A DNA stretch of 64,000 nt, taken from positions 1-64,000 of the forward strand of contig NZ_JBGCCU010000018.1 in NCBI RefSeq assembly GCF_041261445.1. The letters are read 5' to 3'. The stretch is from Catenulispora sp. EB89. GTDB taxonomy: Bacteria > Actinomycetota > Actinomycetes > Streptomycetales > Catenulisporaceae. The translations under genes were made by a program, and so were the position numbers. The notes beneath the pieces were generated by a model that did no database searches, was not told the origin of the DNA, and saw nothing but the letters and a program-made list of their open reading frames with translations. Positions within the stretch are counted from its first letter, which is position 1. Each line of letters opens with the position of its first letter. Of this stretch, positions 37,829-64,000 are shown piece by piece.

Positions 37829-38161
37829 TCAGCCCGCGTCGGTGTCGGCGCCGACGAGTGCCGCGGTGACGTAGGCGACCAGCTGCCCGACCGTCAGCTC
37901 GATGATCTCGTCCAGCCCCAGATCGGCGATGAACTCGGCGAGATTCACCCGCTCCCCGTACCGCTCCGCGAGCTTCCCGGCCAGCGCGACGAGATCCACG
38001 CTCTCCAGTTCCAAATCGTCGTGGAACCGGCTGTCCCACTCGACCTCGATGTCATCGAGCCCGTACTCGTCCAGGATCGACCGCAGCATGGCGGCAACTG
38101 CCGTCAGCACCGCCTCGGCGTCCTCGGCGGGTGCGGGCGGGGTCGTCGTCTCGGTGGTCAC
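37829..38161 (-). CDS. Discrete acyl carrier protein
   Basis: 110 residues. The attachment serine is S54 in DDLELESVDLVAL, with a short Thr/Pro/Glu-rich leader. Helices II-III (LAEFIADLGLDEIIELTVGQLVAYV) fit an ACP. The GTG at 38161 overlaps the PKS stop (GTGA). As the first megasynthase has only one ACP and the second has none, this protein may supply the second carrier site needed for chain transfer, or carry the finished chain to the hydrolase. Confidence 0.88.
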   Translation of the reverse strand: MTTETTTPPAPAEDAEAVLTAVAAMLRSILDEYGLDDIEVEWDSRFHDDLELESVDLVALAGKLAERYGERVNLAEFIADLGLDEIIELTVGQLVAYVTAALVGADTDAG

Positions 38162-49565: not shown

Positions 49566-49822
49566 CGCGGCTCCGTCCTGCGCGCGGCGCGGCCGTAAGG
49601 CCACTGATTTATGGTTACCAACGGGTAGGGAGTTTGGCACATCGAACGTGATGTCGGAAGATAGTCCGCTGTTAAGCTGTATCAACGAAATTGCACACAG
49701 AGGGTGTCTTCTGACCCTGAGACAAAACTTGCGGCTCGAACGCCCTGATCGGCGCTTCGAACCCTGATTTCGGCCCTTTGGCCGCTCTGGCGCCGGGATG
49801 CGAGCTGTGATACTCAATTCGC
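49566..49822. promoter_or_regulatory. Divergent promoter region of the Pfa-like operon
   Basis: 257 bases between the megasynthase and a divergent methyltransferase gene. The stretch 49605-49745 is clearly richer in A/T than its surroundings, consistent with promoters. A GGTTACCAACGGGTAGGG segment near 49612-49630 may be an operator, but I could not define -35/-10 boxes with confidence. No coding sequence is seen. Confidence 0.5.
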
Positions 49823-51013
49823 GTGGGTCCGACCGATGAGCCCGAGCCGACACACCAGCCCGCCGCCGCCCCGGAGCCTGCCGGAGCACCGGCCGCGACC
49901 GCGACGGCACCTCGCCGCGCCGAGGCGATCGCCTTACGCCGCCCCATCTACGAGGCCGACCTCAAGGACGGCCTCGAGCGGTTCTTCGAACCGCGCCGCA
50001 CCGTCTGCCCGTGGTGCGCCTCGGACCGGCTCCGCGAGCGCCTGCACACCACCGACCTGCTCCAGCACAAGCCCGGCGACTTCCGCCTGGACCGCTGCCT
50101 GGACTGCGGGCACATCTTCCAGAATCCGCGCCTGAGCTCAGAAGGACTTGAGTTCTACTACCGCGATTTCTACGACGGACTCGGCGAGAAGAGCAGCGGC
50201 GGCATCTTCGCGGGCCGCGGCGCGACATACCGCCGCCGCGCGCAGGCGTTGCTGCCGCACGTCTCCGGAGTCCTCGGAGTCCCCGGAGTCCCCGGCGTCT
50301 CCGGCTCCGCCGGCGCACCGGGCACCTGGCTGGACGTCGGCACCGGCCACGGCCACTTCTGCGAGGCGGCACGCGAAGTCTTCCCGGACACCGCCTTCGA
50401 CGGCCTCGACTTCACCGACGGCGCCGAACTCGCCGAGCGCGCCGGCCGCGTCCGTTACGGCTACCGCGGCAGCTTCGTCGACGTCGCGTCGTCGGTCGCG
50501 GAGACCTACGACGTGGTGAGCATGTTCCACTACCTGGAGCACAGCGTGGAGCCGGCCCTGGAACTGGAGGCGGCGCACAAGGCGCTGCGCCCCGGTGGAC
50601 TCCTGCTGATCGAGGTCCCCGACGCGGCCAGCCGCTACTCCCGCCTCCTCGGCCGCCGCTGGCTCCCCTGGCTGCAACCGCAACACCTGCACTTCACCCC
50701 GGTCCAGAACCTCCGCACCCGCCTCACCGCGCTCGGCTTCACCGTGCTCGCCGAACAACACGCCGAACCCCACGACCGCGTCGACCTCCTCGCCGCCACC
50801 TGGTTCGTCCTGGACGCCCTCGCCCCCCGCGACGAGGCCCCGTGGCTCCCGCAGCGCCCGGGGCGCGTGAAGCGGACGGCGCGCGTGGTGATCGTGACGC
50901 TTGGCGTTCCGGCCTTGGTCGCGGCGACGATTCTCGACCGGATCATTCCCAAGGCCCTGATACGCCGCCTGCGGCTTTCCAACGCGTACCGGGTGGTTGC
51001 GCGGCGCGAGTAA
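49823..51013 (+). CDS. Zinc-finger class-I methyltransferase with C-terminal hydrophobic helix
   Basis: 396 residues. A disordered Pro/Ala N-terminus is followed by a Cys4 finger (CPWCASDRL and CLDCGHIFQNPRL), then a Methyltransf_23-type domain with TWLDVGTGHGHFCEAA, FDGLDFTDGAELAERAG, VVSMFHYLEHS and ALRPGGLLLIEVPDAASRYSR. A hydrophobic helix near the C-terminus (VVIVTLGVPALVAATIL) may anchor it to the membrane. This layout is common in methyltransferases of sugar, lipid and surface-polymer pathways. It is divergent from the megasynthase gene, so methylation of that product is possible. The GTG at 49823 has no strong ribosome site; a short insertion of GVPGV repeats lies before motif I. Confidence 0.8.
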   Translation: MGPTDEPEPTHQPAAAPEPAGAPAATATAPRRAEAIALRRPIYEADLKDGLERFFEPRRTVCPWCASDRLRERLHTTDLLQHKPGDFRLDRCLDCGHIFQNPRLSSEGLEFYYRDFYDGLGEKSSGGIFAGRGATYRRRAQALLPHVSGVLGVPGVPGVSGSAGAPGTWLDVGTGHGHFCEAAREVFPDTAFDGLDFTDGAELAERAGRVRYGYRGSFVDVASSVAETYDVVSMFHYLEHSVEPALELEAAHKALRPGGLLLIEVPDAASRYSRLLGRRWLPWLQPQHLHFTPVQNLRTRLTALGFTVLAEQHAEPHDRVDLLAATWFVLDALAPRDEAPWLPQRPGRVKRTARVVIVTLGVPALVAATILDRIIPKALIRRLRLSNAYRVVARRE

Positions 51014-51047
51014 CATCGGTGGCTTCCGGCCGATGGACGGGGGTTCG

Positions 51048-52277
51048 ATGAAAACATCGGGGCTGACGGAAGCGTGCATCGAGGACGCGGGCGGTATCTT
51101 GGTAGCGCCTTCCGAGCTGCAAGATAACGACGTGGTCAGGGACTTCTTCGGGTCCGTCATCACGCCGGAGGACCTTGTTGCGGGCTCGCTCGACCTCGCC
51201 GAGAAGACCGTTTACCTTTGTGGCGACATAGCCGAGATCGACAGCTATCGGGTGCGTAAGGTTTCCCGGGTATTCGTCGTCCGCGAGCTGTCACACGGGT
51301 ACCGCGAGGACGTCGACAATCCGTGGAGCGTCGTCGATATCGGCCGGGTCCCCATCCGCATGGGCGGCGTCGGCGTGTACTACCGCCGATTCTTCGACCT
51401 TGGCGACGACCACTTCGGGCGGATCAGTGCGGAGCACGAGTTCCAGTCCCTGACGGAGTCCAGCAAGCCGGGGACGGCCCACCGCAGCGGGATCTATCTG
51501 ACGCCGGTAACACAGAACACTGATGAACTCCACTTCCGCCTGCTGCGCTGTTCCACGAACTTCTCGGGGCCGACGGAGAACTTCCGCCCGACCGACACGC
51601 GCATCGTCGAGGATCTGAACCGCGAGGCCGCCGCTGTTTTCCGGGACCCGGCAGCGCTGAATCACGTCCTCGCGCAGATCTACCACAACACGCTCGCCAC
51701 AGCTGAGCGCAAGCAGGCCAAGGCCAAGATTTCGGCTCACGCGGACAAGACCAAGGACATGCCTGTCAACGGCATCATGGCGTTCTGCACCTTTTACGAT
51801 CAGCTCGACAAGCTACAGCCCCTCGCCGAAGACAGCTTCGACTACGGCGTGAAGGGCGTCAGTGGGCTGACCAAACTCCACTTCCGCCTCAAGGAGTCGA
51901 CCGAACGACCCGAGGAGTCCGGGCTCCCTTCGCAGTTCACTGTGACGCTCTATCCCGGCTCCGCGTTCTTCATGCCGCTGTCCACCAACCGCCTCTATAC
52001 GCACGAGATCCGGCCGTCGATGTTGGACGCCGGACTGCTCCCGACCCGCCTGGGATACGTCGTGCGCTGTTCGAACGCCGAAGCCGTTCATAAGGACGGC
52101 CGCACGTTCCTCAAACTGGCCGGGGACCTGGTGGAACTGGAGGCGCCCACGCCGGACGGCATGGACGAGCTGCGCAGGCTGTACGCGGAGGAGAACAGGA
52201 CCTCGTCCTTCATCGATTACGGCAACGACATTCTCTTCAGCATGAACGCGGGAGACTACGATGCCCCGCGGGTCTGA
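51048..52277 (+). CDS. Degenerate AlkB-like oxygenase homologue, partner of next gene
   Basis: 409 residues of unrecognised family. About 180 unique residues come first. The C-terminal half then aligns by eye with the AlkB-like protein encoded next: KLHFRLKES versus KLTFEPKES, YPGSAFFMPLSTNRLYTHEI versus THNSIVAFSVDANRRLKHKI, and LGYVVRCS..DGRTFL versus LGVTFRTS..DGQAYL. The distal His (THEI) and 2OG-binding Arg are kept, but the HxD pair is missing (YDQLDKL in its place). It may be an inactive subunit or use different metal ligands. The ATG at 51048 is preferred over ATG 51033; GGACGGGGG lies upstream. It overlaps the next gene by 17 bases. Confidence 0.6.
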   Translation: MKTSGLTEACIEDAGGILVAPSELQDNDVVRDFFGSVITPEDLVAGSLDLAEKTVYLCGDIAEIDSYRVRKVSRVFVVRELSHGYREDVDNPWSVVDIGRVPIRMGGVGVYYRRFFDLGDDHFGRISAEHEFQSLTESSKPGTAHRSGIYLTPVTQNTDELHFRLLRCSTNFSGPTENFRPTDTRIVEDLNREAAAVFRDPAALNHVLAQIYHNTLATAERKQAKAKISAHADKTKDMPVNGIMAFCTFYDQLDKLQPLAEDSFDYGVKGVSGLTKLHFRLKESTERPEESGLPSQFTVTLYPGSAFFMPLSTNRLYTHEIRPSMLDAGLLPTRLGYVVRCSNAEAVHKDGRTFLKLAGDLVELEAPTPDGMDELRRLYAEENRTSSFIDYGNDILFSMNAGDYDAPRV

Positions 52278-53031
52278 GATCTCGGATGAGATCCTGTCGT
52301 ACTCCTTGCCGACCGAGGCGAATCTCTTCGCGGAGCTGTCCGCCTCGGTGAGTTGGGAAGACGTCGGAAAAGGCCGGCGAGGCGCCGTCCTCACCAGGGT
52401 CGACGAGGCGGGCGGCGTACCGCTCGTACGCACCACCACGCGATACCGCAGCCCGGCGCAACGTTTCCGGCCGCTGCACGAGCGGCTGGCGCAGCAGATT
52501 CAAGAGCGCGCGGCAATTCCGGTCGGCTTCAACAACGCCCTCATCGAGACCTATACGAACGCTTACACGACCATGGGCGGCCACTCCGACCAGGCCCTCG
52601 ATCTGGCCGCCGAGTCGTTCATCGCCGTGTTCTCGTGCTACCGGAATCCCGAAGCGGGCCCGCCGAGGAAGCTGACCTTCGAACCAAAGGAATCCGGCGG
52701 CGAGAAGTTCGAGATCCCGCTCACCCACAACAGCATCGTCGCCTTCTCGGTCGACGCGAATCGGCGGCTCAAGCACAAGATCACCTTGGACGCGTCCGCC
52801 CAGGCGGCGGACAACCAGTGGCTGGGCGTGACCTTCCGAACATCAAAGACCCTCGTCCGGTTCCGCGACGGACAGGCTTATCTCACACCCGAAGCGCGCC
52901 TCACGTCGGCCGACGACGAGCAGCAGCGCGAGTTCTACCGACTACGCCGCCGCGAGAACAACGAGACGGACTTCGTCTACCCTCCGCTGCTGTACACCGT
53001 CAGCGACAGCGATCTGATGCCGCCGGTCTGA
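52261..53031 (+). CDS. AlkB-like 2-oxoglutarate/Fe(II) oxygenase
   Basis: 256 residues with the AlkB-type jelly-roll order. NNALIETYTNAYTTMGGHSDQ supplies the HxD iron ligands, FIAVFSCYRNP and RKLTFEPK are strands, LTHNSIVAFS precedes RRLKHKI with the distal His, and WLGVTFRTSK corresponds to the RxxLTFR-type 2OG-binding strand. AlkB enzymes demethylate alkylated nucleic acids; related bacterial proteins hydroxylate other substrates. The unusual N-terminus (LPTEANLFAEL, QRFRPLHERL) is compatible with a nucleotide-recognition lid. It overlaps its degenerate homologue by 17 bases, so the two are translated together and may form a heterodimer (inference). Confidence 0.7.
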   Translation: MPRGSEISDEILSYSLPTEANLFAELSASVSWEDVGKGRRGAVLTRVDEAGGVPLVRTTTRYRSPAQRFRPLHERLAQQIQERAAIPVGFNNALIETYTNAYTTMGGHSDQALDLAAESFIAVFSCYRNPEAGPPRKLTFEPKESGGEKFEIPLTHNSIVAFSVDANRRLKHKITLDASAQAADNQWLGVTFRTSKTLVRFRDGQAYLTPEARLTSADDEQQREFYRLRRRENNETDFVYPPLLYTVSDSDLMPPV

Positions 53032-53152
53032 CCGGGGAGCCACTAGCGCGATGCGAACGCATGTGCGAAGCCTCAATAATTCCCCCAGACCCGGGTAGGC
53101 CCCCTTCATCTCGAACATCTCGAAGTTCGACCGAAGCCGGCTGAAGGACGAC

Positions 53153-54541
53153 ATGGCGCGCAATCGCTACGCGGACCTGCTGCGGGTCGTGGCCATCAGC
53201 GGGGTGGTCTACGGCCACTGGCTCCTGGTCTCGGTCACCTACCAGCACGGGCGGTTGTCCGGCGTCAACGCGATCGACTTCATCGGCTGGGGGCGCTGGG
53301 TCACCTGGGCCATGCAGGTGATGCCGGTCTTCTTCCTCGTCGGCGGCTACGTCAACGCCGGGTCCTGGACCGCGCACCAGGCCCGGGGCGAGGGCTGGAC
53401 CCGGTGGGTCCGCGACCGGGTCATGCGGCTGCTGTGGCCGACCGCCGTCTACATCGCCGTGGCGATCGTCGCGGTCGTGATCGCGCAGGCGGCGGGGGCG
53501 CCGCACGCGGAGCTCGCCGAGATCGCCTGGCTCATGGCCCTGCACCTGTGGTTCCTGCCGGTCTACCTGCTGCTCAACGCGCTCACGCCGGTCCTGCTGG
53601 CCGCGCACCGGCGGTGGGGGCTGGCGGTGCCGGCCGCGATGGCCGTGGCGACCGCGCTGGTCGCGGTGGTCAGGACCGTCCCCGGCCTGCACTTCGTCGG
53701 TTACGCCAACTACCTGTTCGTGTGGGGCGGCATCCACCAGTGGGGCTTCGCGTGGCTGGACGGCAGGCTGACCACGCCGCGTTGGCGTCCGTATGTGATG
53801 GCCGTAGTCGGGGCCGCGCTGCTGGTGGGCCTGGTGGCGTCCGGTACCTACAAGGCCGACATGGTCGGCTCCGGCAACACCAACCCGCCCTCGATCGCCC
53901 TCCTGGCGTTCGCGGCGGCCCAGTCGGGTCTGGTGCTGGCGGCGGAGCCCTGGGCCTCCCGGCGGCTGGCCGGGCCGCGCCTGTGGCCGCGGGTGAAGCG
54001 CCTGAACAGCGTGGTCATGAACGTCTACCTGTGGCACTTCGTGCCCGCGCTCATCGTCGCGATCGCCTTCTACACCACCGGGGTGTTCGCGCAGCCCGCC
54101 ATCGGCAGCGCGCGGTGGTGGGAGGTGCGGGTGGTCTGGCTGGCCCTGCTGACGGTGCTGCTGGTCGCGGTGGTCGCGGCCGTCACCTGGGCCGAGCGGC
54201 CGATGCTGCGCCTGCCCGGCGGCGTCGGCCCGGCCGGGTGGTGGTCACCGGTGCTGCTGGTGGTCGGCATCGCGGCCGCGGCTCAGAGCCTGGCCACGTT
54301 CGCCGTGGACGGCTTCGCGCCAGGCGGGCGCCTGCCGTGGGCCGCGCTGGCCGGTTTCGTAGTCGGGCTGGTCGCGACCCTGCTGACGGGTCGAGTACCG
54401 AAGCCCGGCGACGACGATCACCGGCCACAGCGACTGGAGTCCCGTGACGACGCGCTCGGCGAGCCCGGCATAGCCGTGACCGTTCAGTTCGAACAGAAAC
54501 CAGGCCGCGCTGACCAGTACCAGCGCGGTGAAGGCGGCTGA
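53153..54541 (+). CDS. Acyltransferase-3 family membrane protein with run-on tail
   Basis: 462 residues, about ten transmembrane helices. YADLLRVVAISGVVYGHWLL is the N-terminal RxxAxxxVxxxH motif, followed by VMPVFFLVGGYVNAG, ALHLWFLPVYLLLN and NVYLWHFVPALIVAI. The hydrophobic, well-formed protein ends near LLTGRV (about position 54396). The last 48 residues are hydrophilic and are antisense to the real coding part of the convergent DUF998 gene. The normal stop seems to have been lost, perhaps through a deletion that joined the two genes tail to tail. Substrate unknown. Confidence 0.85.
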   Translation: MARNRYADLLRVVAISGVVYGHWLLVSVTYQHGRLSGVNAIDFIGWGRWVTWAMQVMPVFFLVGGYVNAGSWTAHQARGEGWTRWVRDRVMRLLWPTAVYIAVAIVAVVIAQAAGAPHAELAEIAWLMALHLWFLPVYLLLNALTPVLLAAHRRWGLAVPAAMAVATALVAVVRTVPGLHFVGYANYLFVWGGIHQWGFAWLDGRLTTPRWRPYVMAVVGAALLVGLVASGTYKADMVGSGNTNPPSIALLAFAAAQSGLVLAAEPWASRRLAGPRLWPRVKRLNSVVMNVYLWHFVPALIVAIAFYTTGVFAQPAIGSARWWEVRVVWLALLTVLLVAVVAAVTWAERPMLRLPGGVGPAGWWSPVLLVVGIAAAAQSLATFAVDGFAPGGRLPWAALAGFVVGLVATLLTGRVPKPGDDDHRPQRLESRDDALGEPGIAVTVQFEQKPGRADQYQRGEGG

Positions 54542-54967
54542 CGTCGCCGGCCGCAGCGGCCACGGGGTGGACCGACCGTCCTCCATCGCCAGGCAGGGCC
54601 AGGCCGCGAGCGTCGCGAACGCCATCCCGGTGGCCACGACGTGCTGCGGCGTGGTGCCGCCGTCGCCGGGCTCCGGGAAGGCCGCCACCGCGATCGAGAA
54701 GGTACCGCCGAGGAGCAGGCACATCCGCCCCGCGGGCCGTATTCGCTTGAGCCCGTACGCAGTGAGGAAATAGCACAATCCGATGCCGGCGAACACCGAC
54801 GTCATCAACCACCGGTCGGTCGCCCGTTCGGCGGCCAGCGCGCTGATGGTGTGGCTGAGCGGATCGAAGCCCGCGGGCTGCCGATCCTCCGCGGCCGTCC
54901 AGCCGCCGATCAGCAGGACCGGGGCCGCGCCGGATGACAGCAGCGTCCACCATGGAACGAGCGACAT
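54245..54967 (-). CDS. DUF998 membrane protein with run-on tail
   Basis: 240 residues in total, of which about 190 form a DUF998 protein with six membrane helices (LVPWWTLLSSGAAPVLLIGG, DPLSHTISALAAE, then four further helices ending VVAGLRYS). The DPLSHTISALA segment is characteristic. The remaining 50 residues are hydrophilic and antisense to the acyltransferase's last helices, so the natural stop is missing here as well. I start at the ATG at 54967; ATG 55009 is the alternative. Function of the family is unknown. Confidence 0.75.
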   Translation of the reverse strand: MSLVPWWTLLSSGAAPVLLIGGWTAAEDRQPAGFDPLSHTISALAAERATDRWLMTSVFAGIGLCYFLTAYGLKRIRPAGRMCLLLGGTFSIAVAAFPEPGDGGTTPQHVVATGMAFATLAAWPCLAMEDGRSTPWPLRPATSAAFTALVLVSAAWFLFELNGHGYAGLAERVVTGLQSLWPVIVVAGLRYSTRQQGRDQPDYETGQRGPRQAPAWREAVHGERGQALSRGRDADHQQHR

Positions 54968-55080
54968 ACGCACACCGTAAGTGTGACGGTTTGATCGGAC
55001 TTGTTCCACGGGACTCGGGCAGAGTGGCGCGCTGGGCCATGTGGGGGATCGGGACGCTCAGACGGCCACTGTGCGCTTCA

Positions 55081-55908
55081 TCAGCCGTGGATGGTCGTGG
55101 TCCCTGTGGTCCCTGTGGTCCCTGTGGTCGCCGTGGTCCCCGTGATCGCCGTGCCGGTGAGTTCGGCGCAGTAGTCGAGGAGCGCGTCTTGAACCGCCGC
55201 GTCGTGCGCTTCGGCGGAAACGAAGCGCACCTGCTGGTGGTAGAAGTGCCGACCGGTGACCAGCGCGGCCTTGTCGTCGCTGACGGCCAGCCAGGCCTGA
55301 GTCACAGGGCCCTGATCCAGATCGTCCGGCGCGCCGCGGCCGCCCATCTTCGTCGCGACCCACCCGGGTTCCACCGAGTTCGACAGCACGTCCGGCCACC
55401 GGCGCGCGACACCGAACGCCAGCAGCACATCGAACAGCTTGCTGTCGCTGTAGGCCTGCGAACCGCTCCAACGGCGTCCGGCCCACTGCGCATCGGACAG
55501 GTCCGGATCCCCGCCGCGGGCCATGCCCGAGCTGAGGTAGACCAGCCGGTCCGGCCGCGTCATCAGCGCGGTCAGCAGGTAGGGCGCGAGCACGTTGACC
55601 GTGAACAGCTGGGACAGGCCGTCGGCGGTCTCGACCCGGCGCGGCTCGCGGTAGCCGAGGCCGGCGTTGTGGATGACGGCGTCGAACCGGCCCGCCGCAT
55701 TGGCCGCGGCGGCGAGCGACCGGATCCCGTCGAGCGACCCCAGATCGGCCACCAGCACGTCCTCGGCGGCCGGCACGGCGGCGCGCGTCTGTTCGGCGCG
55801 CTTGTCGTTGCGAGCGTGCAAAGTGACCGAATGGCCCTGCGCGATCAGCAGCCGGCCGGCCATCAGGCCGAGGCCGTCGGAGGACCCGGTGATCAGTACG
55901 TGAGCCAT
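55081..55908 (-). CDS. Short-chain dehydrogenase/reductase
   Basis: 275 residues. The Rossmann motif TGSSDGLG lies at residues 7-14, NAG is present as HNAGLG, and the catalytic Tyr-Lys pair is in YSDSK. NVLAPYLLTALM and SVEPGWVATKMGG are family-typical. Cofactor (NADP by the Arg in ARND) is likely; the substrate is unknown. The last 20 residues are an ITGTT-type repeat produced by a 9-bp tandem repeat and are not part of the fold. AAGGTGGT precedes the ATG at 55908. It is divergent from an epimerase gene. Confidence 0.88.
   Translation of the reverse strand: MAHVLITGSSDGLGLMAGRLLIAQGHSVTLHARNDKRAEQTRAAVPAAEDVLVADLGSLDGIRSLAAAANAAGRFDAVIHNAGLGYREPRRVETADGLSQLFTVNVLAPYLLTALMTRPDRLVYLSSGMARGGDPDLSDAQWAGRRWSGSQAYSDSKLFDVLLAFGVARRWPDVLSNSVEPGWVATKMGGRGAPDDLDQGPVTQAWLAVSDDKAALVTGRHFYHQQVRFVSAEAHDAAVQDALLDYCAELTGTAITGTTATTGTTGTTGTTTIHG
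55090..55160 (-). repeat. 9-bp tandem repeat in SDR 3' end
   Basis: About seven imperfect copies of GTGGTCCCT (plus-strand reading) encode a GTT-type C-terminal tail of the SDR. In-frame slippage would only change tail length. Confidence 0.7.
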
Positions 55909-56141
55909 TGTCGTACCACCTTCTGGAGAGCGTTCGAGCTTCTGTAGAGCGTTCGAGCTTCGCCGGCGGCCGCTGCCGCTGCGACACGTCCACTCTCGGC
56001 CTCCCGGCCCCACGCTGCCCAAGACCTGTTTCGCACCCTGTGATGCCCTGCGGGTATCACAGAGAGCCGAAGAGGTCTTGGACGCCGGCGTCGATCAAGC
56101 CGCATCGTGGAGACGAACCCGAGAGCGGTGGAGGACGACAA

Positions 56142-56999
56142 ATGAAGATTTTCCTGACAGGCGGATCCGGCTACATCGGCCGGGCCACGATCGCCGAGCT
56201 GCTGCGCCACGGCCACACCGTGGAGGCACTGGCGCGCAGCGAGCAGTCGGCCCAGGCCGTCGCGGGCGTCGGCGCGGTCGCGGTCCACGGCGGCCTCGCC
56301 GACCTGGACGTGCTCCGGCACGCCGCCGCCCGCGCCGACGCGGTGATCCACCTCGCGCAGGCCGACTCCCCGGACACGGAACTCGCCGCGGCCACCGCCA
56401 TGCAGGACGGCGTCGGGCCCGGCACGTACGTGCACACCGGCGGCAGTTGGGTCTACGGCGACACCGACGGCGTCCAGGACGAGACCGCACCGTGGAACCC
56501 GCCGAGCGTCGTGGCATGGCGCAAGCCGGTCGAGGACCAGGTCCTGGCGCGCGCCGCCGAAGGAGGCCGCCCGGTCGTCGTGCAACCCGGCCTGCTCTAC
56601 GGCGGCGACAACCGGCTGATCGACCACTTCCTCATCACCCCGGGCAAGCGCGCCGGCGCCGTCCCGTACATCGGCGACGGCACCAACCACTGGTCACTGA
56701 TCCACATCGACGACGTCGCCACGCTCTACACCGCCGCCCTCGCGGCGCAACCCGGATCGGTCTACCTCGGCGTCGGCGAGAACCACCCGACGATGAAGGA
56801 AGTCGCCGAGGCGGCATCGCGCGGCGCCGGCCTCGGCGGCAAGACAGCCTCGATCACCCTCGAGCAGGCCCGCACCCAGATGGGCCCCGTCGCGGACGCG
56901 TTCGCGCTGGACCAGCGCTTGACGTCGGCCAAGGCTCGGCGTGAGTTGGGCTGGGTGCCGGTGCACGACGATCCGCTCGGGACTTTCGAGCGGGGCTGA
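56142..56999 (+). CDS. NAD-dependent epimerase/dehydratase family protein
   Basis: 285 residues of the extended-SDR fold. MKIFLTGGSGYIGRATIAELL is the dinucleotide-binding start, and HTGGSWVYGD, VVVQPGLLYGG and WSLIHIDDVATLY are typical of atypical SDRs of the NmrA/epimerase border. The catalytic YxxxK is not obvious (the corresponding region reads VVAWRKPVED), so it may be a reductase-like or sensory member rather than a true sugar epimerase. GGAGGAC precedes the ATG at 56142. It shares a promoter region of 233 bases with the divergent SDR. Confidence 0.82.
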   Translation: MKIFLTGGSGYIGRATIAELLRHGHTVEALARSEQSAQAVAGVGAVAVHGGLADLDVLRHAAARADAVIHLAQADSPDTELAAATAMQDGVGPGTYVHTGGSWVYGDTDGVQDETAPWNPPSVVAWRKPVEDQVLARAAEGGRPVVVQPGLLYGGDNRLIDHFLITPGKRAGAVPYIGDGTNHWSLIHIDDVATLYTAALAAQPGSVYLGVGENHPTMKEVAEAASRGAGLGGKTASITLEQARTQMGPVADAFALDQRLTSAKARRELGWVPVHDDPLGTFERG

Positions 57000-57293
57000 G
57001 AAGCCGACGGAACCGCAGGGGAGTCGACCCACGCAACCTCCGCTACTGCCTTGCGGTAGTCGAGAACCCCGCCCGGTCCCCGTGCTCCACAGCGCCGAGG
57101 AAGAGCTCAAACCCATAGTTGGCCGACGAGGGCGGAAGCCGTGGCACCGGGGCCAGCCGACGGAACCGTCGGAAGGCTGGCTCGTGTACGGGATGTCAGT
57201 CGGCGAACGCATTCCGTCATCGGCAGGTTCGATCCGAGGTGAGTCAGGGTACTTACTCCGGCGTATCCGGATCGAACCGGCCTGGGGGGCCAC
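57000..57293. other. Intergenic region with small hairpin
   Basis: No gene is seen. A perfect 7-bp hairpin with a 2-base loop (57157-57163 with 57166-57172) is the only structure; the downstream 120 bases precede the nuclease gene and must contain its promoter. Confidence 0.4.
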
Positions 57294-58832
57294 ATGGCGC
57301 GCAAGAAGTCACTGATGCAGCAGATGCTGGCCGCCCAGCGGGAACGTCAGCGCCATGCTGAAGCTGAACAGAAACGGCAGGCCGCGGCGCTGGACCGCGC
57401 GGCGCGGGCCCAGCAGCAGGCCGAACTCCAGGAGCAGAAAAACCGCGACGCGCGCGAGTTGGCAACCTACAAGTCGAATCTCGCACGCGCCGAACAGGAG
57501 AAGAAGCAGCAGGCCGCAGACGCCGCCAAGATCGAGCGGGATCTGGAGCGTCGCGAGCAGCAACGAGAGCGTGAAGCGGCGCGCCAACGCGACGCCGAGG
57601 CCCGGGCGCGTAAGGCGGCGGAGGCTGAACGGTCCAAAGCCGACGCCGCCGAGGCGCGAGCGGCAAAGGCAGCCGCGGTGGAAGAGATGAAGGCCGAGGC
57701 CGCGCACCGGACGGCCGAAGTGGAACAGCGCGTCGCTGCCTTCGCCGGGGTTCTCGCTGACCGTGAGCGCGGGTTGCACCATCACCGACTGGCGCTGGAG
57801 GACGAGTTCGATTCCCGCGGCGCCGAGGCGCTGGCTGCGGCTGTTGCTGAACTGCTGGCGCAGATCGGCTATCCGGAGCACCTGCAGGACGCTGTGCGCG
57901 CGGCGTATGCCCCGGAGACACGTGAGCTGTTGCTCGAGATTGAGCTTCCCCGCCAATCGGTGATCCCGGCCGAAGCCGGCTTCCGCTACGCATCCTCCAA
58001 AGCTGCCATCGTGGCCGAGCCGAGGAAACCTGCCGAGATCCGACAGATGTTCCGTGATCTGGCCGCGCGTTTCACGTTGAGGGCTCTTGACCACGCGCTC
58101 GCGATCAGTCCGCCGAGTCTGGTGGACGTGGTTCTGGTCAACGGGCATGTGCGTGCCAAGGACCCGGCGACCGGCAAACCCATCCATCCCTGCTTGGTCA
58201 GCGTGAAGACCACCCGTGAGAACTTCGAGGAGATCGAGCTCGACGAGCCGACCCTGGACCCGGGCACATGCCTGAAGTACCTGAACGCCATGCTGTCACC
58301 GCACCCCTACGACCTCGAGGGGGTGCGCCCCGTGCTCGCCTTCGACCTCAGCCGGTTCAAGTTCGTCGAGGAGCTGGACGTGCTTTCCCAGCTCGATCAC
58401 CGCAAGGATCTTCTGCAGTTGAGCCCGACGGAGTTCGAACATCTGGTGCGTCAACTGTTTGAGGCGATGGGGCTGAAAGCATGGGTCACCCAAGCCAGCC
58501 GTGACGACGGCGTGGACGGGTTCGCCTTCAACCCCGATCCGGTGCTCGGCGGGCAGTGCGTGATTCAGGCCAAGCGGTACAGCAAGGTGATCCCCATCGA
58601 GGCGGTGCGCGCGCTGGAGGGCACCATCCAGGACAAGCGCGCCGCCAAGGGCATCTTGGTGGCGACCTCGTGGTTCAGCTCTGCCGACCGGGAATTCGCC
58701 GATCGGATGGGGCGTATAGAGCTCATCGACGGCAGCAATCTCAAGGCTCTCCTCGCCGAGCATCTCGGCCTTGACGTGGTCATCGGCTTGGAGCGTCTTC
58801 CCCTGGGGTGGCTGCCCTCTGATATCGCGTAG
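57294..58832 (+). CDS. Mrr-type restriction endonuclease with N-terminal coiled coil
   Basis: 512 residues. Residues 1-165 are a highly charged Ala/Glu/Arg/Gln coiled coil. A middle domain (about 175-370) of unknown family follows. The last 140 residues are an Mrr_cat PD-(D/E)xK nuclease: LSPTEFEHLVRQLFEAMG, then DDGVDGFAF, CVIQAKRYSKVIPIEAVRALEG and GILVATSWFSSADREFAD. The catalytic Asp and QAKR are intact. Mrr-family proteins cut modified or foreign DNA. It lies 150 bases upstream of a VWA/PP2C/kinase triad in the same orientation and probably belongs to one locus. The ATG at 57294 follows GGGGG. Confidence 0.88.
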   Translation: MARKKSLMQQMLAAQRERQRHAEAEQKRQAAALDRAARAQQQAELQEQKNRDARELATYKSNLARAEQEKKQQAADAAKIERDLERREQQREREAARQRDAEARARKAAEAERSKADAAEARAAKAAAVEEMKAEAAHRTAEVEQRVAAFAGVLADRERGLHHHRLALEDEFDSRGAEALAAAVAELLAQIGYPEHLQDAVRAAYAPETRELLLEIELPRQSVIPAEAGFRYASSKAAIVAEPRKPAEIRQMFRDLAARFTLRALDHALAISPPSLVDVVLVNGHVRAKDPATGKPIHPCLVSVKTTRENFEEIELDEPTLDPGTCLKYLNAMLSPHPYDLEGVRPVLAFDLSRFKFVEELDVLSQLDHRKDLLQLSPTEFEHLVRQLFEAMGLKAWVTQASRDDGVDGFAFNPDPVLGGQCVIQAKRYSKVIPIEAVRALEGTIQDKRAAKGILVATSWFSSADREFADRMGRIELIDGSNLKALLAEHLGLDVVIGLERLPLGWLPSDIA

Positions 58833-58981
58833 CACGAGCCGATCCGGCGGGACGGTCAGTGCGTGCCGGACCCGCGCAATCCCTGTGCGCGGCCGGTCAC
58901 CGGCTGTATGATCGGGCGATCGGCCGCATGACAGGGCTCTGATGAACGGTGTGCGGCCGTCGAATCCTTGGGGGGATGCCA

Positions 58982-59818
58982 ATGACCTATACAGCCGAGA
59001 TCAGCAGGTCCAATCCCGGATGCTTCGTGTTCCTGGTCGACCAGTCCGCGTCGATGTCGGATCCCATCGGTGGCGAGGCACCGGGGCGCAAAGCCGATGT
59101 CGTCTCGGATGCGATCAACCGGTTGCTTACAGAGCTGTCGGTGAAATGCGCCAAGGAAGAGGGTGTCAGGGACTACTTCCACGTAGCGGTCATCGGATAC
59201 GGCCATTCCGTCGGTCCGGCCCTCGGCGGCCCGCTGTCCGGCCGTGATCTCGTACCGTTGAGCCAGATCGCCGACAACCCCGCACGGGTCGAGGAACGGT
59301 CGAAGAAGGTTCCCGACGGTGCCGGCGGCCTGGTCGAGACGACAGCGAGCTTTCCGGTGTGGATGACTCCGGTAGCCAACGGAGGGACGCCGATGGTGGC
59401 CGCCCTCGGGTACGCGCGGCGGCTGATCGCGCAGTGGCTCGACGAGCATCCCGGTGGGTTTCCGCCGATCGTGCTGAACCTGTCGGACGGCGAGTCGACC
59501 GACGGTGACCCGGCGGCTGCGGCCGCTGAGATCACGTCACTGGCCAGTGCCGACGGCGGCGTCTTGTTGTTCAACCTGCACGTCTCCGCAGTAGGTGGCA
59601 CCCCCGTCGAGTTCCCGGACACGGATGCCGCGCTCCCGGATGCCCACGCGCGCACCTTGTTCGGCATCTCGAGCCTGCTGCCCGGCCACATGAGATCGTA
59701 TGCCGGCGCACAGGGCAAGAAGGTCAGCGACGGGACACGCGGCTTCGTCTACAACGCCGACATCAGTGCCGTCGTGCAGTTCCTGGACATCGGAACTCGC
59801 GCCACTGAACTGCGGTGA
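58982..59818 (+). CDS. VWA-domain protein (TerY-like)
   Basis: 278 residues, one von Willebrand A domain. MIDAS residues are intact: DQSAS (D20, S22, S24), the Thr in NGGTPM and the Asp in NLSDGES. FVFLVDQSASMS at the N-terminus and the C-terminal GFVYNADISAVVQFLDIGT fit the TerY group. In TerY-phosphorylation (TerY-P) triads such proteins act with a PP2C phosphatase and a protein kinase, encoded here in the next two genes. Cytoplasmic, no signal. ATG 58976 is an alternative start six bases upstream. Its stop overlaps the phosphatase start as GTGA. Confidence 0.87.
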   Translation: MTYTAEISRSNPGCFVFLVDQSASMSDPIGGEAPGRKADVVSDAINRLLTELSVKCAKEEGVRDYFHVAVIGYGHSVGPALGGPLSGRDLVPLSQIADNPARVEERSKKVPDGAGGLVETTASFPVWMTPVANGGTPMVAALGYARRLIAQWLDEHPGGFPPIVLNLSDGESTDGDPAAAAAEITSLASADGGVLLFNLHVSAVGGTPVEFPDTDAALPDAHARTLFGISSLLPGHMRSYAGAQGKKVSDGTRGFVYNADISAVVQFLDIGTRATELR

Positions 59819-60627
59819 CTGCGACACCGGCCTATGTTTCGCGGTTCCTCGTCCCGAAGGACGGGAATGACGCAGACCAGTGCGAAGACGCTCTCGTAGC
59901 GTGGCCGCCGGTCGAGTGCGACCAGCCGATCGCCGGCGCGTTCCTGGCCGTCCTGTGCGATGGGGCATCGGAGAGCCTGTTGGCTCGGGACTGGGCCCGC
60001 CTGCTTGCGGAGGAGCTCGCCAGCCGTGTTGAGCGGAGGCCGAGAACGGTGGGCTCCCCGGCGACCGCAGCGAAGGCGATCGCGGCGGCAGCACGCGGGT
60101 GGGACTCCTGGTTGGCCGCGTACCTCGAACGCAGGGAGAAAGACGGCAAACCGGTGGCCTGGTACGAGAAGCCGGGCCTCGAACGCGGCGCGTACGCCAC
60201 GGCCCTCGCCGTGAGCGTCCGTGCCGACGAAGACCGATGGCGATGGAACGCGGCCGCACTCGGGGACACGTGCCTGTTCCACGTCCGTGACGACCGCCTG
60301 CTTTACGCGTTCCCCGTCTCGGATCCGGCGGATTTCGGTGTGACCCCGGCATTGGCGGGGAGCCGTAACCATGACGCCGCGCTTCTCGCCAGGCACGTAA
60401 AAGTCGCGACTGGTGAGTGCGAGTCCGGTGACGCCGTCTTCATGGCGACGGACGCTCTCGCTGCGTGGTTCCTCACCAGTACGGCAACCGGTAAGCAGCC
60501 GTGGAACCTCCTCCGCGAGTTCGCAGGTCGAGAACCCTCGGAGTTCGAGGACTTCATCGCTGCGCTGCGGGCGGCCGGGGACATGCGCAATGACGACGTC
60601 GCCTTCGTCCACTTCGACATCGGATAG
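59815..60627 (+). CDS. PP2C-type protein phosphatase
   Basis: 270 residues. Metal and catalytic motifs are visible: DADQCEDA, LCDGAS (DG pair), AALGDTCLF (GD), FMATDALAAW (TD) and MRNDDVAF (ND). This is the compact PP2C of TerY-P triads, expected to dephosphorylate targets of the adjacent kinase, perhaps the VWA protein or the nucleases. Translation starts at GTG 59815, overlapping the VWA stop, and the kinase starts 5 bases after its end, so the three genes are one operon. Confidence 0.88.
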   Translation: MTATPAYVSRFLVPKDGNDADQCEDALVAWPPVECDQPIAGAFLAVLCDGASESLLARDWARLLAEELASRVERRPRTVGSPATAAKAIAAAARGWDSWLAAYLERREKDGKPVAWYEKPGLERGAYATALAVSVRADEDRWRWNAAALGDTCLFHVRDDRLLYAFPVSDPADFGVTPALAGSRNHDAALLARHVKVATGECESGDAVFMATDALAAWFLTSTATGKQPWNLLREFAGREPSEFEDFIAALRAAGDMRNDDVAFVHFDIG

Positions 60628-60632
60628 GGTCC

Positions 60633-62783
60633 ATGGCAGGAAACCAGACCTTCCCCAGTGGCGCCGACTACGCCGAGGCGATTCAGAACCCGCGGATCTG
60701 CTTCCAGGACCCCGAGCTGCGTGATGGCCGACCGGAATTGACGGGCCTCAGGCAACCCAGGCCGATTTCCGGCAACTTCGCCTCGGTGTTCTCCATGACC
60801 TCGCCGAGCGGACTCCGCTACGCGGTCAAGTGCTTCACCCGCGACGTCGCCGATCAGCGCAGCCGGTACGAGGCCATCAGCCGGCATCTCGCCGGTGTCG
60901 ACGACAGCTCCCTGTCGCAACCCTGGCGCATGGACTTCAGTTACCTGCCAGACGGAATACTCGTCCGCGGCACGCGCTGGCCCGTGCTCAAGATGGCCTG
61001 GGTCGACGGCACGGGTCTGATCAGCTGGCTGGAGACGCACCGCGCCGATCGCGTGGCCGTCCACAAACTCGCAGACCGTTTCGCCGCATTGGTCGCGGAT
61101 CTCGAAAACGCTCGCATCGGCCACGGCGACCTCCAGCACGGCAACCTGCTGGTGGCGCCCGACGGCACCTTGCGGCTCGTCGACTATGACGGCATGTTCG
61201 TGCCGGCGCTCGCCAGTGCCCGAGCCGTCGAGGAGGGACACAGGCACTACCAGGCTCCCATGCGCCGGAACTCAGGGGACTACAACGAGACCATCGATCG
61301 ATTCTCCGCGTGGGTCATCTACCTTTCGCTGATGGCGCTCTCAGTTGACTCGACTTTGTGGGACCGCCTGCGGGCCGCGGATGCCGAGCATCTCCTGACC
61401 TGCGAAGAGGACTACGCGACCCCGTCAGCGTCCTGGCGGCTCAACCAACTGGTCGCGACCGGTGGCGAGGTCGGCCGGATCGCTGAGATGGTCCGGGAGC
61501 TCGCGGGCAAACCGACTCAATCGATGCCGAAGCTCGCGCCGGCGCCACGTGGCACCTCGACAAATCCTGTGATCGGAGAGTCGCCCACGGGCCACATCGC
61601 CACAGGATCTGCCGCGCCGGGCGCCAGCCGTCGTCCGGCTTGGCTCGACGACCACATCGAGCACACACCGGCCCCCGCGCCGGCGCGGTTCACGCGCCGT
61701 CGGCCCTCCGATGCGGTCTTCGCACTCTCAGGACTGCTCATGATGGCGTTGGGACTCATCGCCATAGTCCTGGACCCGCTGATGGCCTACCTCGGCTTTG
61801 TCGTGATCGCGGTCGGGCTTGTGATCGCAGACCTCGGCCGACGAGCCCGTCCGGAGTGGCGGACGGCCCGTGACACACGCCGGTCACGGGCGAAACAGAT
61901 CTCCGCCTTCGGCGATCCGGCGGGGCGTCTCCAGCAGATGGAGCGGGACCGCGTCAGACAGGACACGCAGATCTCACAACAGATCGACGCCGTGGTCCGA
62001 GACCAACGCGAGGCAGTTACCAGGCGAGTGAACGACGTGGCGAGGGTGGACCGCACACTCGCCGGGCAGTTGTCCGCGATCTCTCAACGCAAGCAGCGGG
62101 TCGAGGCGGATCACAGCAGACGGATCACGTCGGAACTCGAGCGGATCCGAACCGCCCACGTCCAAGACCGGCTCCGTCGCCACACCATTCACCAGGGTAT
62201 CAAGGGCATCAATGGCCTGGGTCCGGCCGCGGCGGCCACACTCAGCGCACACGGTGTCCGTAGCGCGGCCGACGTCCAGATCGCGCTCGTCGCCGGAAGC
62301 GCCGCGTACTCCTCACGTATGGCGTATTTCCTGCTGCCCGGCGGCAGCAGGACGCGGATCGAGGGGATAGGGGAGGTCAAGGCTAAGGCGCTGCTCGCGT
62401 GGCGGGACGGCCTGACCCGTGAGGCGCTGCGCAGCGCGCCGACTTCGCTGCCGGCCGGCCAGGAGTCCGCCCTGCGGAACGCCAAGAGCGCCGACCTCGC
62501 AAGCCTTGATGCCGAGTACCGCATAGCCGAAGACTCAGCGCGGCTGGAGAAGACCAACCTCAACGTCAGGGCGGCTCAGGAAGCGACCCGGCTGGCCGAT
62601 CGGCACAAGGAGTTGTCGGCCGAGCTGGCGGGCGGCCGAGTGAAGTTCTCTTCGGAAGCGGCGGCGCTGCGAGACCAGGTGAACCAACGGAATCGGGTGG
62701 TCGCCGCCGCCGACGTGGAGCGGCGCGGTTGCCGCCGGTTGCGGCTTCACCGGTATTTGGTGTTCGCCGTCTTCGGTTCATGA
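60633..62783 (+). CDS. Ser/Thr-kinase-like protein with TM helices and HhH domain
   Basis: 716 residues. The kinase domain (about 20-300) has K66 in YAVKCF, catalytic loop H164-G-D166-L-Q-H-G-N171 and D184-Y-D in place of DFG. Two adjacent hydrophobic helices lie at about 364-402. A coiled coil follows, then a helix-hairpin-helix DNA-binding pair (about 520-595: GIKGINGLGPAAAATLSAHGV and IEGIGEVKAKALLAWR) and a second coiled coil. The HhH tail is a known variation of TerY-P kinases and suggests contact with DNA. With HGDLQHGN and an intact Lys, catalysis looks possible. The last 20 residues are Arg-rich and may be a run-on. Confidence 0.87.
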   Translation: MAGNQTFPSGADYAEAIQNPRICFQDPELRDGRPELTGLRQPRPISGNFASVFSMTSPSGLRYAVKCFTRDVADQRSRYEAISRHLAGVDDSSLSQPWRMDFSYLPDGILVRGTRWPVLKMAWVDGTGLISWLETHRADRVAVHKLADRFAALVADLENARIGHGDLQHGNLLVAPDGTLRLVDYDGMFVPALASARAVEEGHRHYQAPMRRNSGDYNETIDRFSAWVIYLSLMALSVDSTLWDRLRAADAEHLLTCEEDYATPSASWRLNQLVATGGEVGRIAEMVRELAGKPTQSMPKLAPAPRGTSTNPVIGESPTGHIATGSAAPGASRRPAWLDDHIEHTPAPAPARFTRRRPSDAVFALSGLLMMALGLIAIVLDPLMAYLGFVVIAVGLVIADLGRRARPEWRTARDTRRSRAKQISAFGDPAGRLQQMERDRVRQDTQISQQIDAVVRDQREAVTRRVNDVARVDRTLAGQLSAISQRKQRVEADHSRRITSELERIRTAHVQDRLRRHTIHQGIKGINGLGPAAAATLSAHGVRSAADVQIALVAGSAAYSSRMAYFLLPGGSRTRIEGIGEVKAKALLAWRDGLTREALRSAPTSLPAGQESALRNAKSADLASLDAEYRIAEDSARLEKTNLNVRAAQEATRLADRHKELSAELAGGRVKFSSEAAALRDQVNQRNRVVAAADVERRGCRRLRLHRYLVFAVFGS

Positions 62784-62823
62784 AGATGGCGTCATTCGAG
62801 CACGCGACCGCGGAGGTGGTGTC

Positions 62824-63522
62824 GTGACACGCAGACGGACCTCGACGACGACGGACGTGACGATCCTTGCGGGCCGGCTCGTGACGGTGACTGTGGTGGC
62901 TGTGGTGGCTGTGGTGAAAGCCGTGGTCAGAATGCCGTCGCTACTCTTGTTGCTCGCACCGGTGCTGTTGGTCGTGGCTGTTGACGGCGGCGCTGGAGAT
63001 CCCTTGCGCAGCGCAGTCCTGATCATCGGGACTATCGCGGGCACCGGACTCTTCGGGCGCTGGCGGTACCGGAGATGGCTGCAGAGCCAGGCCGACAGAG
63101 CGGCCGCGGAGCAGCTGCAGGCGCTTCGTGCGCGGGAGATCGCCACCTACCACGCCATGAACCCACGGCAGTTCGAGGAAGCGCTGGCTTATCTCTGCGC
63201 CAGAGACGGGTGTTCGCAGACCTCTGTCGTCGGAGGCTCCGGCGATCTGGGGGCGGACGTCGTCGCCGTCACCCCGGATGGTCGGCGACTCGTCATCCAG
63301 GCCAAACGCTACGCACAGGGAAACAATGTGTCCGGCCCGGATCTCCAGCGGTTCGGAGGGACTTGTTTCGCGATTCATGGAGCACACGTCGCCGTTGTCA
63401 TCACGACTGGTGGTTTCACCAGGCAGGCGCGCGACTACGCGGCCAGACTCGGGATCCGGCTGATCGACAATGACAGCCTCGCCGCTTGGGCATCGGGGAC
63501 AGGCCGGGCGCCGTGGCACTGA
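62824..63522 (+). CDS. Membrane-anchored Mrr-type restriction endonuclease
   Basis: 232 residues. Two hydrophobic helices (about 20-54 and 61-80) are followed by a short coiled coil and an Mrr_cat nuclease: MNPRQFEEALAYLCARDG, GSGDLGADVVAVTPDGRRLVIQAKRY (catalytic D and QxK), GTCFAIHGAHVAVVITTGGFTRQARDYA and RLIDNDSL. The membrane anchor plus nuclease is found in several predicted defence proteins. It is 40 bases after the kinase, preceded by GGAGGTGG and a GTG start at 62824, so it likely belongs to the same operon. A terminator follows. Confidence 0.88.
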   Translation: MTRRRTSTTTDVTILAGRLVTVTVVAVVAVVKAVVRMPSLLLLLAPVLLVVAVDGGAGDPLRSAVLIIGTIAGTGLFGRWRYRRWLQSQADRAAAEQLQALRAREIATYHAMNPRQFEEALAYLCARDGCSQTSVVGGSGDLGADVVAVTPDGRRLVIQAKRYAQGNNVSGPDLQRFGGTCFAIHGAHVAVVITTGGFTRQARDYAARLGIRLIDNDSLAAWASGTGRAPWH

Positions 63523-63575
63523 TCGTCACGGGTACCAACGATGTTCATACCTCATGATCGCGGTCTGCTGGCTGC

Positions 63576-63612
63576 CGGGCGCCGCCGTGCTACTCCCGCA
63601 CGACGGCGCCCG
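63576..63612. terminator. Bidirectional terminator
   Basis: 14-bp stem with one G-U-type mismatch (63576-63589 with 63599-63612), between the convergent nuclease and lectin-like genes. Confidence 0.7.
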
Positions 63613-63644
63613 CTGACGCCCGACGGCGCCCGATCCACCACTAA

Positions 63645-64000
63645 CTACGGCGCATAACTCACCACCGGGTTCGTCACCAGATGCGTGTCGGTCAGCGACC
63701 CGTCCCCGCCGGTGAACGCCACCAGCACCTTCGGCGGCAGCGTGACCGCCGCGTCCAGCACCTGCGTTCCGTCCAGCGTGACCACGACGTGCGATGCCGC
63801 GGTGATCGTGACGGTCACTGCGTGCGCCCCGGTGTTCCGGATCGCCGGGATCGCCGTGTTGGACGCGACCGCGTTCAGGTTGGCGTTGCCGAAGGTCGCC
63901 GTGCCGACCGCGCACCATGACGAGTGTCCGTAGATCCCCATGTCGCCGTAGGTGTTCAGGGAGACGAACGTTGCCGGCAGGGCCGCGACGCCGAGGCCGC
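63645..64000 (-). CDS. Lectin-like beta-sandwich protein, 5' end outside window
   Basis: The minus-strand frame is open to the window edge. The 118 visible residues (GLGVAALPATFVSLNTYGDMG at the edge, then VTVTITAASHVVVTLDG, LPPKVLVAFTGGDGSLTDTH and NPVVSYAP at the end) look like the C-terminal part of an L-type-lectin / concanavalin-like beta-sandwich, probably secreted. The start and signal peptide lie beyond the window, so length and targeting are unknown. Confidence 0.65.
   Translation of the reverse strand, partial: GLGVAALPATFVSLNTYGDMGIYGHSSWCAVGTATFGNANLNAVASNTAIPAIRNTGAHAVTVTITAASHVVVTLDGTQVLDAAVTLPPKVLVAFTGGDGSLTDTHLVTNPVVSYAP

Follow-up and report, generated by a model that had tools for sequence, protein, structure and literature searches.

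A candidate cassette pairing a TerY-P-type phospho-switch with a membrane-anchored Mrr-family nuclease in Catenulispora sp. EB89

TerY-P has been described as an antiphage system acting against T7-like phages (PMC7699616), and in Pseudomonas aeruginosa it acts against Autographiviridae, with most carrier cells surviving and some cell death (PMC10889362). The tested system comes from Gao et al. 2020, as given in PMC7699616 and PMC11090510. TerY-P triads also accompany CoCoNuTs, according to PMC11090510, which credits Anantharaman et al. 2012 with connecting TerY-P to restriction and DNA processing. A system that depends on TerY and has CARF-nuclease proteins has been mentioned (PMC3710099), and kinase, PP2C and vWA genes associated with GAP1-N2, as well as an EACC1-caspase pair, have been described in actinobacteria (PMC7159879). 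In this study, we analysed a window of 64,000 nucleotides (positions 1 to 64,000 of contig NZ_JBGCCU010000018.1) from Catenulispora sp. EB89, in which five co-oriented open reading frames (ORFs) occupy positions 57294-63522 of the plus strand and encode, in order, a first Mrr-family nuclease (Mrr1), a von Willebrand factor A (VWA) protein, a PP2C-type phosphatase, a protein kinase and a second Mrr-family nuclease (Mrr2). A first-pass annotation had assigned these five genes and their domains, and the ORFs, Pfam and PADLOC matches and conserved residues confirmed the assignment. Our results suggest that the last four genes form a cassette at 58883-63522, in which a TerY-P-type phospho-switch may control a membrane-anchored nuclease.

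We compared window positions 45001-63500 and the next 19.5 kb of the contig (about 38 kb) with the corresponding locus of C. pinisilvae (L003). The results showed that 58883-63522 was the sole DNA match, beginning just 5' of the VWA gene and ending with the Mrr2 stop codon. This conserved block leaves Mrr1 outside, and Mrr1 had no match in the C. pinisilvae locus or, at 1e-30, elsewhere in that genome, indicating that the unit is a cassette of four genes, not five. The genes are closely packed: the VWA and PP2C genes overlap by 4 bp, the PP2C and kinase genes are 5 bp apart, and the kinase and Mrr2 genes are separated by 40 bp. The block begins with an upstream region (58883-58975, plus strand), at whose start the C. 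pinisilvae alignment opens. It carries a -10-like TATGAT at 58907-58912, which was found at -71/-72 in three Catenulispora loci (L002, L003 and L004) and in none of 76 other loci. A consensus scan of 56900-63700 detected no sigma-70 site, and the TATGAT region is a possible promoter of the cassette itself. The unity of 58883-63522 as a cassette is thus well supported.

The kinase was patchily distributed in the family, being present in 6 of 14 genomes, a few of them incomplete. In five of these six genomes (five of seven kinase loci), the next gene was the genome's best Mrr2 match, with 62-100% identity, and this next-gene position was found in both Catenulispora and Actinospica; the family genomes overlap the locus set described below, with L002-L004 and probably L069 coming from shared assemblies. 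The sixth genome (G443; G443:C159 and G443:C391) carried two distant kinases of 36% identity, and its 55% identical Mrr2-like protein lay on another contig. An empty site was not demonstrable in the relatives compared: similarity in G441, G445 and G448 stopped near window position 55,000, and the contig of G453 began at the equivalent of 63,655. The patchy occurrence and the relocation of the block in C. pinisilvae suggest that the cassette may be mobile.

The VWA gene (58976-59818, plus strand) encodes a TerY-type protein with a complete metal-ion-dependent adhesion site (MIDAS). It matched the PADLOC TerY model over the whole model (E = 9.1e-103), and the alignment showed that D22, S24, S26, T138 and D171 were retained, placing it in the TerY clade with MIDAS that marks a TerY-P triad in the broad sense. 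The ATG at 58982, which lies behind GGGGGG, may be a better start than 58976. The broad definition also asks for a PP2C and a Ser/Thr kinase encoded beside the VWA gene, and both are found here. The PP2C-type phosphatase (59815-60627, plus strand) had no match among the Pfam PP2C models; it matched the PADLOC PP2C model (7.3e-28), and D25, D49, D151, D213, D260 and D261 were invariant across eight sequences including E. coli PphC. The kinase (60633-62783, plus strand) consists of a kinase domain, a transmembrane (TM) hairpin (residues 358-405), a helix (429-516), a helix-hairpin-helix (HhH) region (519-600) and a further helix (608-701). Its Pfam matches, Pkinase (1.4e-05) and HHH_5 (0.0028), were both under their cut-offs, and it matched PADLOC STK_OB with its kinase domain alone (5.2e-71). 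Residues K66, H164-G-D166, N171 and D184 were invariant in 33 sequences, a survey that did not include L024, L070, L074 or the window itself (L001). The roles of the conserved catalytic and MIDAS residues in VWA, PP2C, kinase and Mrr proteins are well established. The predicted structure (predicted template modelling score 0.48) placed a membrane hairpin at 358-405 together with long helices; the geometry of this arm was read from predicted secondary structure, and the fold comparison covered mainly residues 11-309. Sequence searches against the PDB gave only weak matches, from the kinase profile to LanKC (E = 0.0013) and from the VWA profile to ITIH4 (E = 0.00075).

Mrr2 (62824-63522, plus strand), the last gene of the conserved block, encodes an Mrr-family nuclease with a hydrophobic N-terminus that probably anchors it in the membrane. 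It matched Pfam Mrr_cat (7.2e-26), and E118, D145 and K161 were invariant in 10 sequences, with Q159 nearly invariant. Mrr_cat was found in both Mrr1 and Mrr2, and Mrr2 shows the endonuclease fold with the D...QxK motif. Canonical Mrr of the E. coli type has a separate N-terminal winged-helix domain, Mrr_N; this domain was not matched in Mrr1 or Mrr2 at E = 0.1, and in Mrr2 a hydrophobic segment stands in that place. We considered membrane anchoring as a sign of association with the triad and rejected it, since a hydrophobic N-terminal segment above the threshold was present in 13 of 20 triad-adjacent Mrrs and in 24 of 30 non-adjacent relatives. The genes were intact in the relatives compared, and the ratio of nonsynonymous to synonymous substitution (dN/dS) was 0.05-0.45 overall, indicating that they are more than chance ORFs. 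By partner, dN/dS was 0.05-0.25 against C. rubra, 0.06-0.19 against C. pinisilvae and 0.15-0.45 against Actinospica, where synonymous sites are near saturation; for Mrr2 it was 0.18-0.19 in three comparisons.

We then set the triad against the described systems. The TerY-P antiphage system has the same three gene types, and the VWA protein, PP2C and kinase domain of the window matched the PADLOC models built for it, so that the TerY-P-like phospho-switch proposed in the first-pass annotation stands. The TerY-P kinase, however, has a C-terminal OB fold, whereas the window kinase carries a TM hairpin, coiled coil and HhH region instead; its STK_OB match stopped at profile position 291 of 562, so the OB fold is not recognised (the kinase of a Chloroflexota relative, L078, matched up to position 411). 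The window cassette also has an Mrr nuclease gene in addition. E. coli YegI-PphC-YegL has the same three gene types as well, and its kinase tail is homologous to that of the window: a profile of 33 kinase tails scored 53.2 bits against YegI, the best of 500 shuffles scored 2.6, and YegI too has hydrophobic segments, indicating a tail of the YegI type. The other two proteins are distant from their E. coli counterparts, with 27% identity between the VWA protein and YegL and 19% between PP2C and PphC, and they do not belong to the YegL/PphC clade. Neither YegL nor PphC matched PADLOC TerY or PADLOC PP2C at 0.001. The window proteins do give these matches, as does the kinase domain for STK_OB, placing the triad on the TerY side, and we rejected the idea that it is a plain copy of YegI/PphC/YegL. 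No Mrr gene was found among the features annotated in 14 kb around YegI-PphC-YegL of E. coli K-12. Because the OB fold is missing and the kinase tail is of the YegI type, we filed the triad as a TerY-P variant.

Other systems share single features with the cassette. The TerY-P triad of CoCoNuTs is likewise attached to a nuclease system, but there the neighbours are McrBC-like and helicase/HEPN genes and the kinase bears a zinc ribbon, whereas the partner in the window is one Mrr (PMC11090510). The GAP1-N2-associated genes include a kinase at times fused to TM helices, a PP2C and a stand-alone vWA, as in the window; this set was described within GTPase-centred systems (PMC7159879), and GAP1-N2 genes were not looked for at the window. 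In PglW of type 2 BREX/Pgl, a defence system, a protein kinase is likewise coupled to a domain with the restriction-endonuclease fold, but PglW is a single multidomain fusion and its partners are other BREX proteins, making the parallel a functional one only (PMC12839542). In the literature searched, which covered few subscription papers, we found no description of a lone Mrr gene paired with a TerY triad.

We scanned relatives of the triad with one genome per species. The best 80 of 85 relatives were kept, corresponding to 79 distinct loci, several of them with short flanks. VWA, PP2C and kinase domain were matched in all 79, and the kinase tail in 71. An Mrr gene was present in the flanks examined (up to 10 kb on each side) at 17 loci, with 18 Mrr genes in total, and lay within 1 kb of the triad at 10. 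The number expected from the Mrr density of the genomes was 0.33 in the flanks and 0.06 within 1.5 kb. This density came from 117 matches in 434 Mb of 47 genomes, namely the source genome, which was excluded from the rate, and those of 46 of the 79 loci; since all 17 Mrr-adjacent loci were among them, the base rate is too high if anything. The flanks were scanned with an iterated Mrr profile and the genomes with PF04471. The expectation of the first-pass annotation that such triads would be found beside Mrr-family nucleases elsewhere was therefore borne out. On a VWA+kinase tree, the Mrr-adjacency label required 10 changes, at least 6 of them forced; on the Mrr tree it required 6, at least 5 of them forced, indicating that the pairing was gained or lost several times. 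The VWA+kinase tree was a quick tree without bootstrap, made from 78 rows (the window and 77 of the 79 loci, with L024 and L074 left out because of broken frames), and the long branches of the Mrr tree (Mrr1 and Nonomuraea) are of unsure placement.

The position and partners of the Mrr gene varied among these loci. It lay downstream and co-oriented in Catenulispora and Actinospica, downstream and convergent in L076, upstream and co-oriented in Nonomuraea (L005 and L011), and upstream and divergent in Actinokineospora (L007). In nine Streptomycetaceae loci (L013, L020, L022, L023, L025, L031, L034, L036 and L049), Mrr was joined by EACC1 and by a caspase/SF1-helicase protein of about 1230 aa, forming a module beside the triad. 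This module, which lies at L013:4773-9793, occurred in three arrangements, and EACC1 was matched in Pfam at 4.6e-07. Its domains were identified by searches of L013 and of the Mrr of L036, and the other loci were assigned by similarity clusters. Some loci showed further features. An SF1 helicase with a C-terminal DUF2726 lies directly 3' of the triad in Nocardia (L033:13974-16751), with similar genes in L019 and L044. L055 and L019 each hold a second triad, in the opposite orientation in the former and on the same strand in the latter, and L075 (Chloroflexota) has three tandem VWA paralogues.

We give an even chance to the reading that 58883-63522 is a self-contained cassette in which a TerY-P-type phospho-switch has the membrane-anchored Mrr nuclease as its effector; the most likely identity of the cassette is a variant form of the TerY-P antiphage switch that controls a membrane-tethered nuclease. 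The HhH end of the kinase arm would touch DNA, or a DNA-bound complex, near the membrane, and the kinase would then phosphorylate itself, the VWA protein or Mrr2. Phosphorylation would release or recruit Mrr2, so that incoming DNA is cut at the membrane; the PP2C would reset the switch, with the VWA protein as an adaptor. Sensing or binding of DNA by the HhH region, phospho-control of Mrr2 and a role in defence against phage or plasmids are inferred. Abortive infection, which had been suggested for the locus, is not favoured, given the survival of most P. aeruginosa cells that carry TerY-P (PMC10889362).

Several results weigh against this reading. No Mrr was found in the examined flanks of 62 of the 79 triad loci, and a class-wide search of 394 genomes returned 27 VWA matches in 21 genomes, 25 of them only 39-49% identical; among the matches listed, only the window's own lay near an Mrr. 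Mrr2 relatives are often found where the triad is missing: of 39 genomes in group f2 of the same order, 31 had an Mrr2 match (1e-15) and 3 a VWA match (1e-40), and in these three genomes the two were far apart. Searches with the kinase returned nothing from phages and, from plasmids, two distant cyanobacterial matches; no search for integrases was made. The 62 loci without an Mrr suit the alternative that two independent defences share one transfer unit, the triad acting alone like TerY-P and Mrr2 being an ordinary type IV-like nuclease outside phospho-control. In its favour, too, Mrr2 relatives lacked neighbouring triad proteins at all 29 loci examined over 1.5 kb and at all 4 examined over about 7 kb, and the triad-adjacent Mrrs stem from several separate Mrr branches. 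We nevertheless regard this alternative as somewhat unlikely, as two genera of the family, one of them Catenulispora, keep Mrr2 as the next gene, and the pairing was repeated independently, far above the density expectation. Less probable still is a signalling unit for stress or DNA maintenance that resembles YegI/PphC/YegL and whose nuclease would act in repair or chromosome turnover instead of defence. The YegI-type kinase tail fits such a unit, as do the reported autophosphorylation of YegI and its dephosphorylation by PphC (PMC13232886) and the lack of defence genes among the 10 flanking proteins scanned at the window; the PADLOC matches that YegL and PphC fail to give, and the patchy, relocated cassette, speak against it.

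The first-pass annotation had seen the triad as flanked by two Mrr nucleases and coupled to both, that is, as a five-gene, two-nuclease device. This holds for the gene order at this locus, where Mrr1 (57294-58832, plus strand), a coiled-coil Mrr-family nuclease, adjoins the triad in the same orientation, as it does in C. rubra. A link could be retained for Mrr2, the next gene in Catenulispora and Actinospica with independent recurrence elsewhere; it could not be retained for Mrr1. Mrr1 matched Pfam Mrr_cat (5.8e-30) and, with residues 133-498, PADLOC mREase_IV (4.6e-96); residues 14-162 gave a weak coiled-coil-type match, and a PDB sequence search gave no match. It ends 143 bp before the VWA gene, beyond the conserved block, and no match at 1e-30 was found in two genomes that carry the cassette (G442 and G444). 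Mrr1 relatives were widespread, occurring in 63 of 147 genomes of the order, and the source genome has a second family member of 44% identity (G000:C27:144274-145638). The VWA search covered 20 group-f2 genomes that carry an Mrr1 relative; 19 of them had no VWA match (1e-40), and in the other (G363), the VWA match and the Mrr1 relative were on different contigs. We therefore rejected Mrr1 as a part of the system, and the two-nuclease device is largely refuted and very improbable.

The first-pass annotation had further called the locus a candidate defence island, which the surroundings did not support. None of 10 scanned flanking proteins (from 10 of the 23 flanking genes called) matched PADLOC at 1e-5, and the flanking genes named by Pfam were mostly metabolic, glycosyltransferase or lectin-type. 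We also scanned the neighbours of 6 of the 17 Mrr-adjacent loci and 8 of the 62 others, leaving out proteins above 1200 aa and pieces at contig ends. At a threshold of 1e-10, the 61 neighbours of the Mrr-adjacent loci matched 7 PADLOC models with one match each, and the 82 neighbours of the other loci matched 10 models with 16 matches. With so few matches near the Mrr-adjacent loci, dense defence surroundings are no general explanation for the pairing. One strong JetA (Wadjet) match and one PD-Lambda-2 match were nevertheless among the 61, so island clustering may apply at some of these loci, a further point against a dedicated switch-nuclease unit.

The source genome (G000) comprises 11.9 Mb in 70 contigs. 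The closest locus among the relatives found was that of Catenulispora rubra, with 98% identity of the VWA protein and 90-94% DNA identity over the region. The G+C content of 58001-64000 was 65-67%, against about 70-74% across much of the window, which is in keeping with the cassette reading, although it was also lowish at 50001-54000 (67-68%). Elsewhere in the window, a polyketide-synthase protein (ketoacyl synthase, acyltransferase and phosphopantetheinyl transferase) and a glycosyltransferase are encoded on the minus strand at 38161-42726 and 35356-37023, and a long ORF (42681-49910) adjoins these genes.

In the TerY-P literature searched, how TerY-P stops phages is not explained and no effector is named for the tested form. 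Connections between TerY-P and restriction systems in general have already been published (PMC11090510). In the cassette, a switch of this kind would act on a single nuclease whose active site is recognisable, offering a direct handle on the mechanism of TerY-P. If loss of the phosphatase unleashed the nuclease and a dead nuclease cancelled protection, reversible protein phosphorylation would control a restriction-type enzyme. More tentatively, and with doubt, we suggest that in multicellular actinomycetes the kinase-TM-HhH triad may be a plug-in phospho-switch that repeatedly captured DNA-destroying effectors, its HhH region on a long coiled-coil arm probing DNA near the membrane and licensing the nuclease by phosphorylation. 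These effectors may include a lone Mrr in Catenulispora, Actinospica, Nonomuraea, Actinokineospora and one Streptomyces, the Mrr-EACC1-caspase/helicase module in Streptomycetaceae, and the SF1 helicase with DUF2726 in Nocardia.

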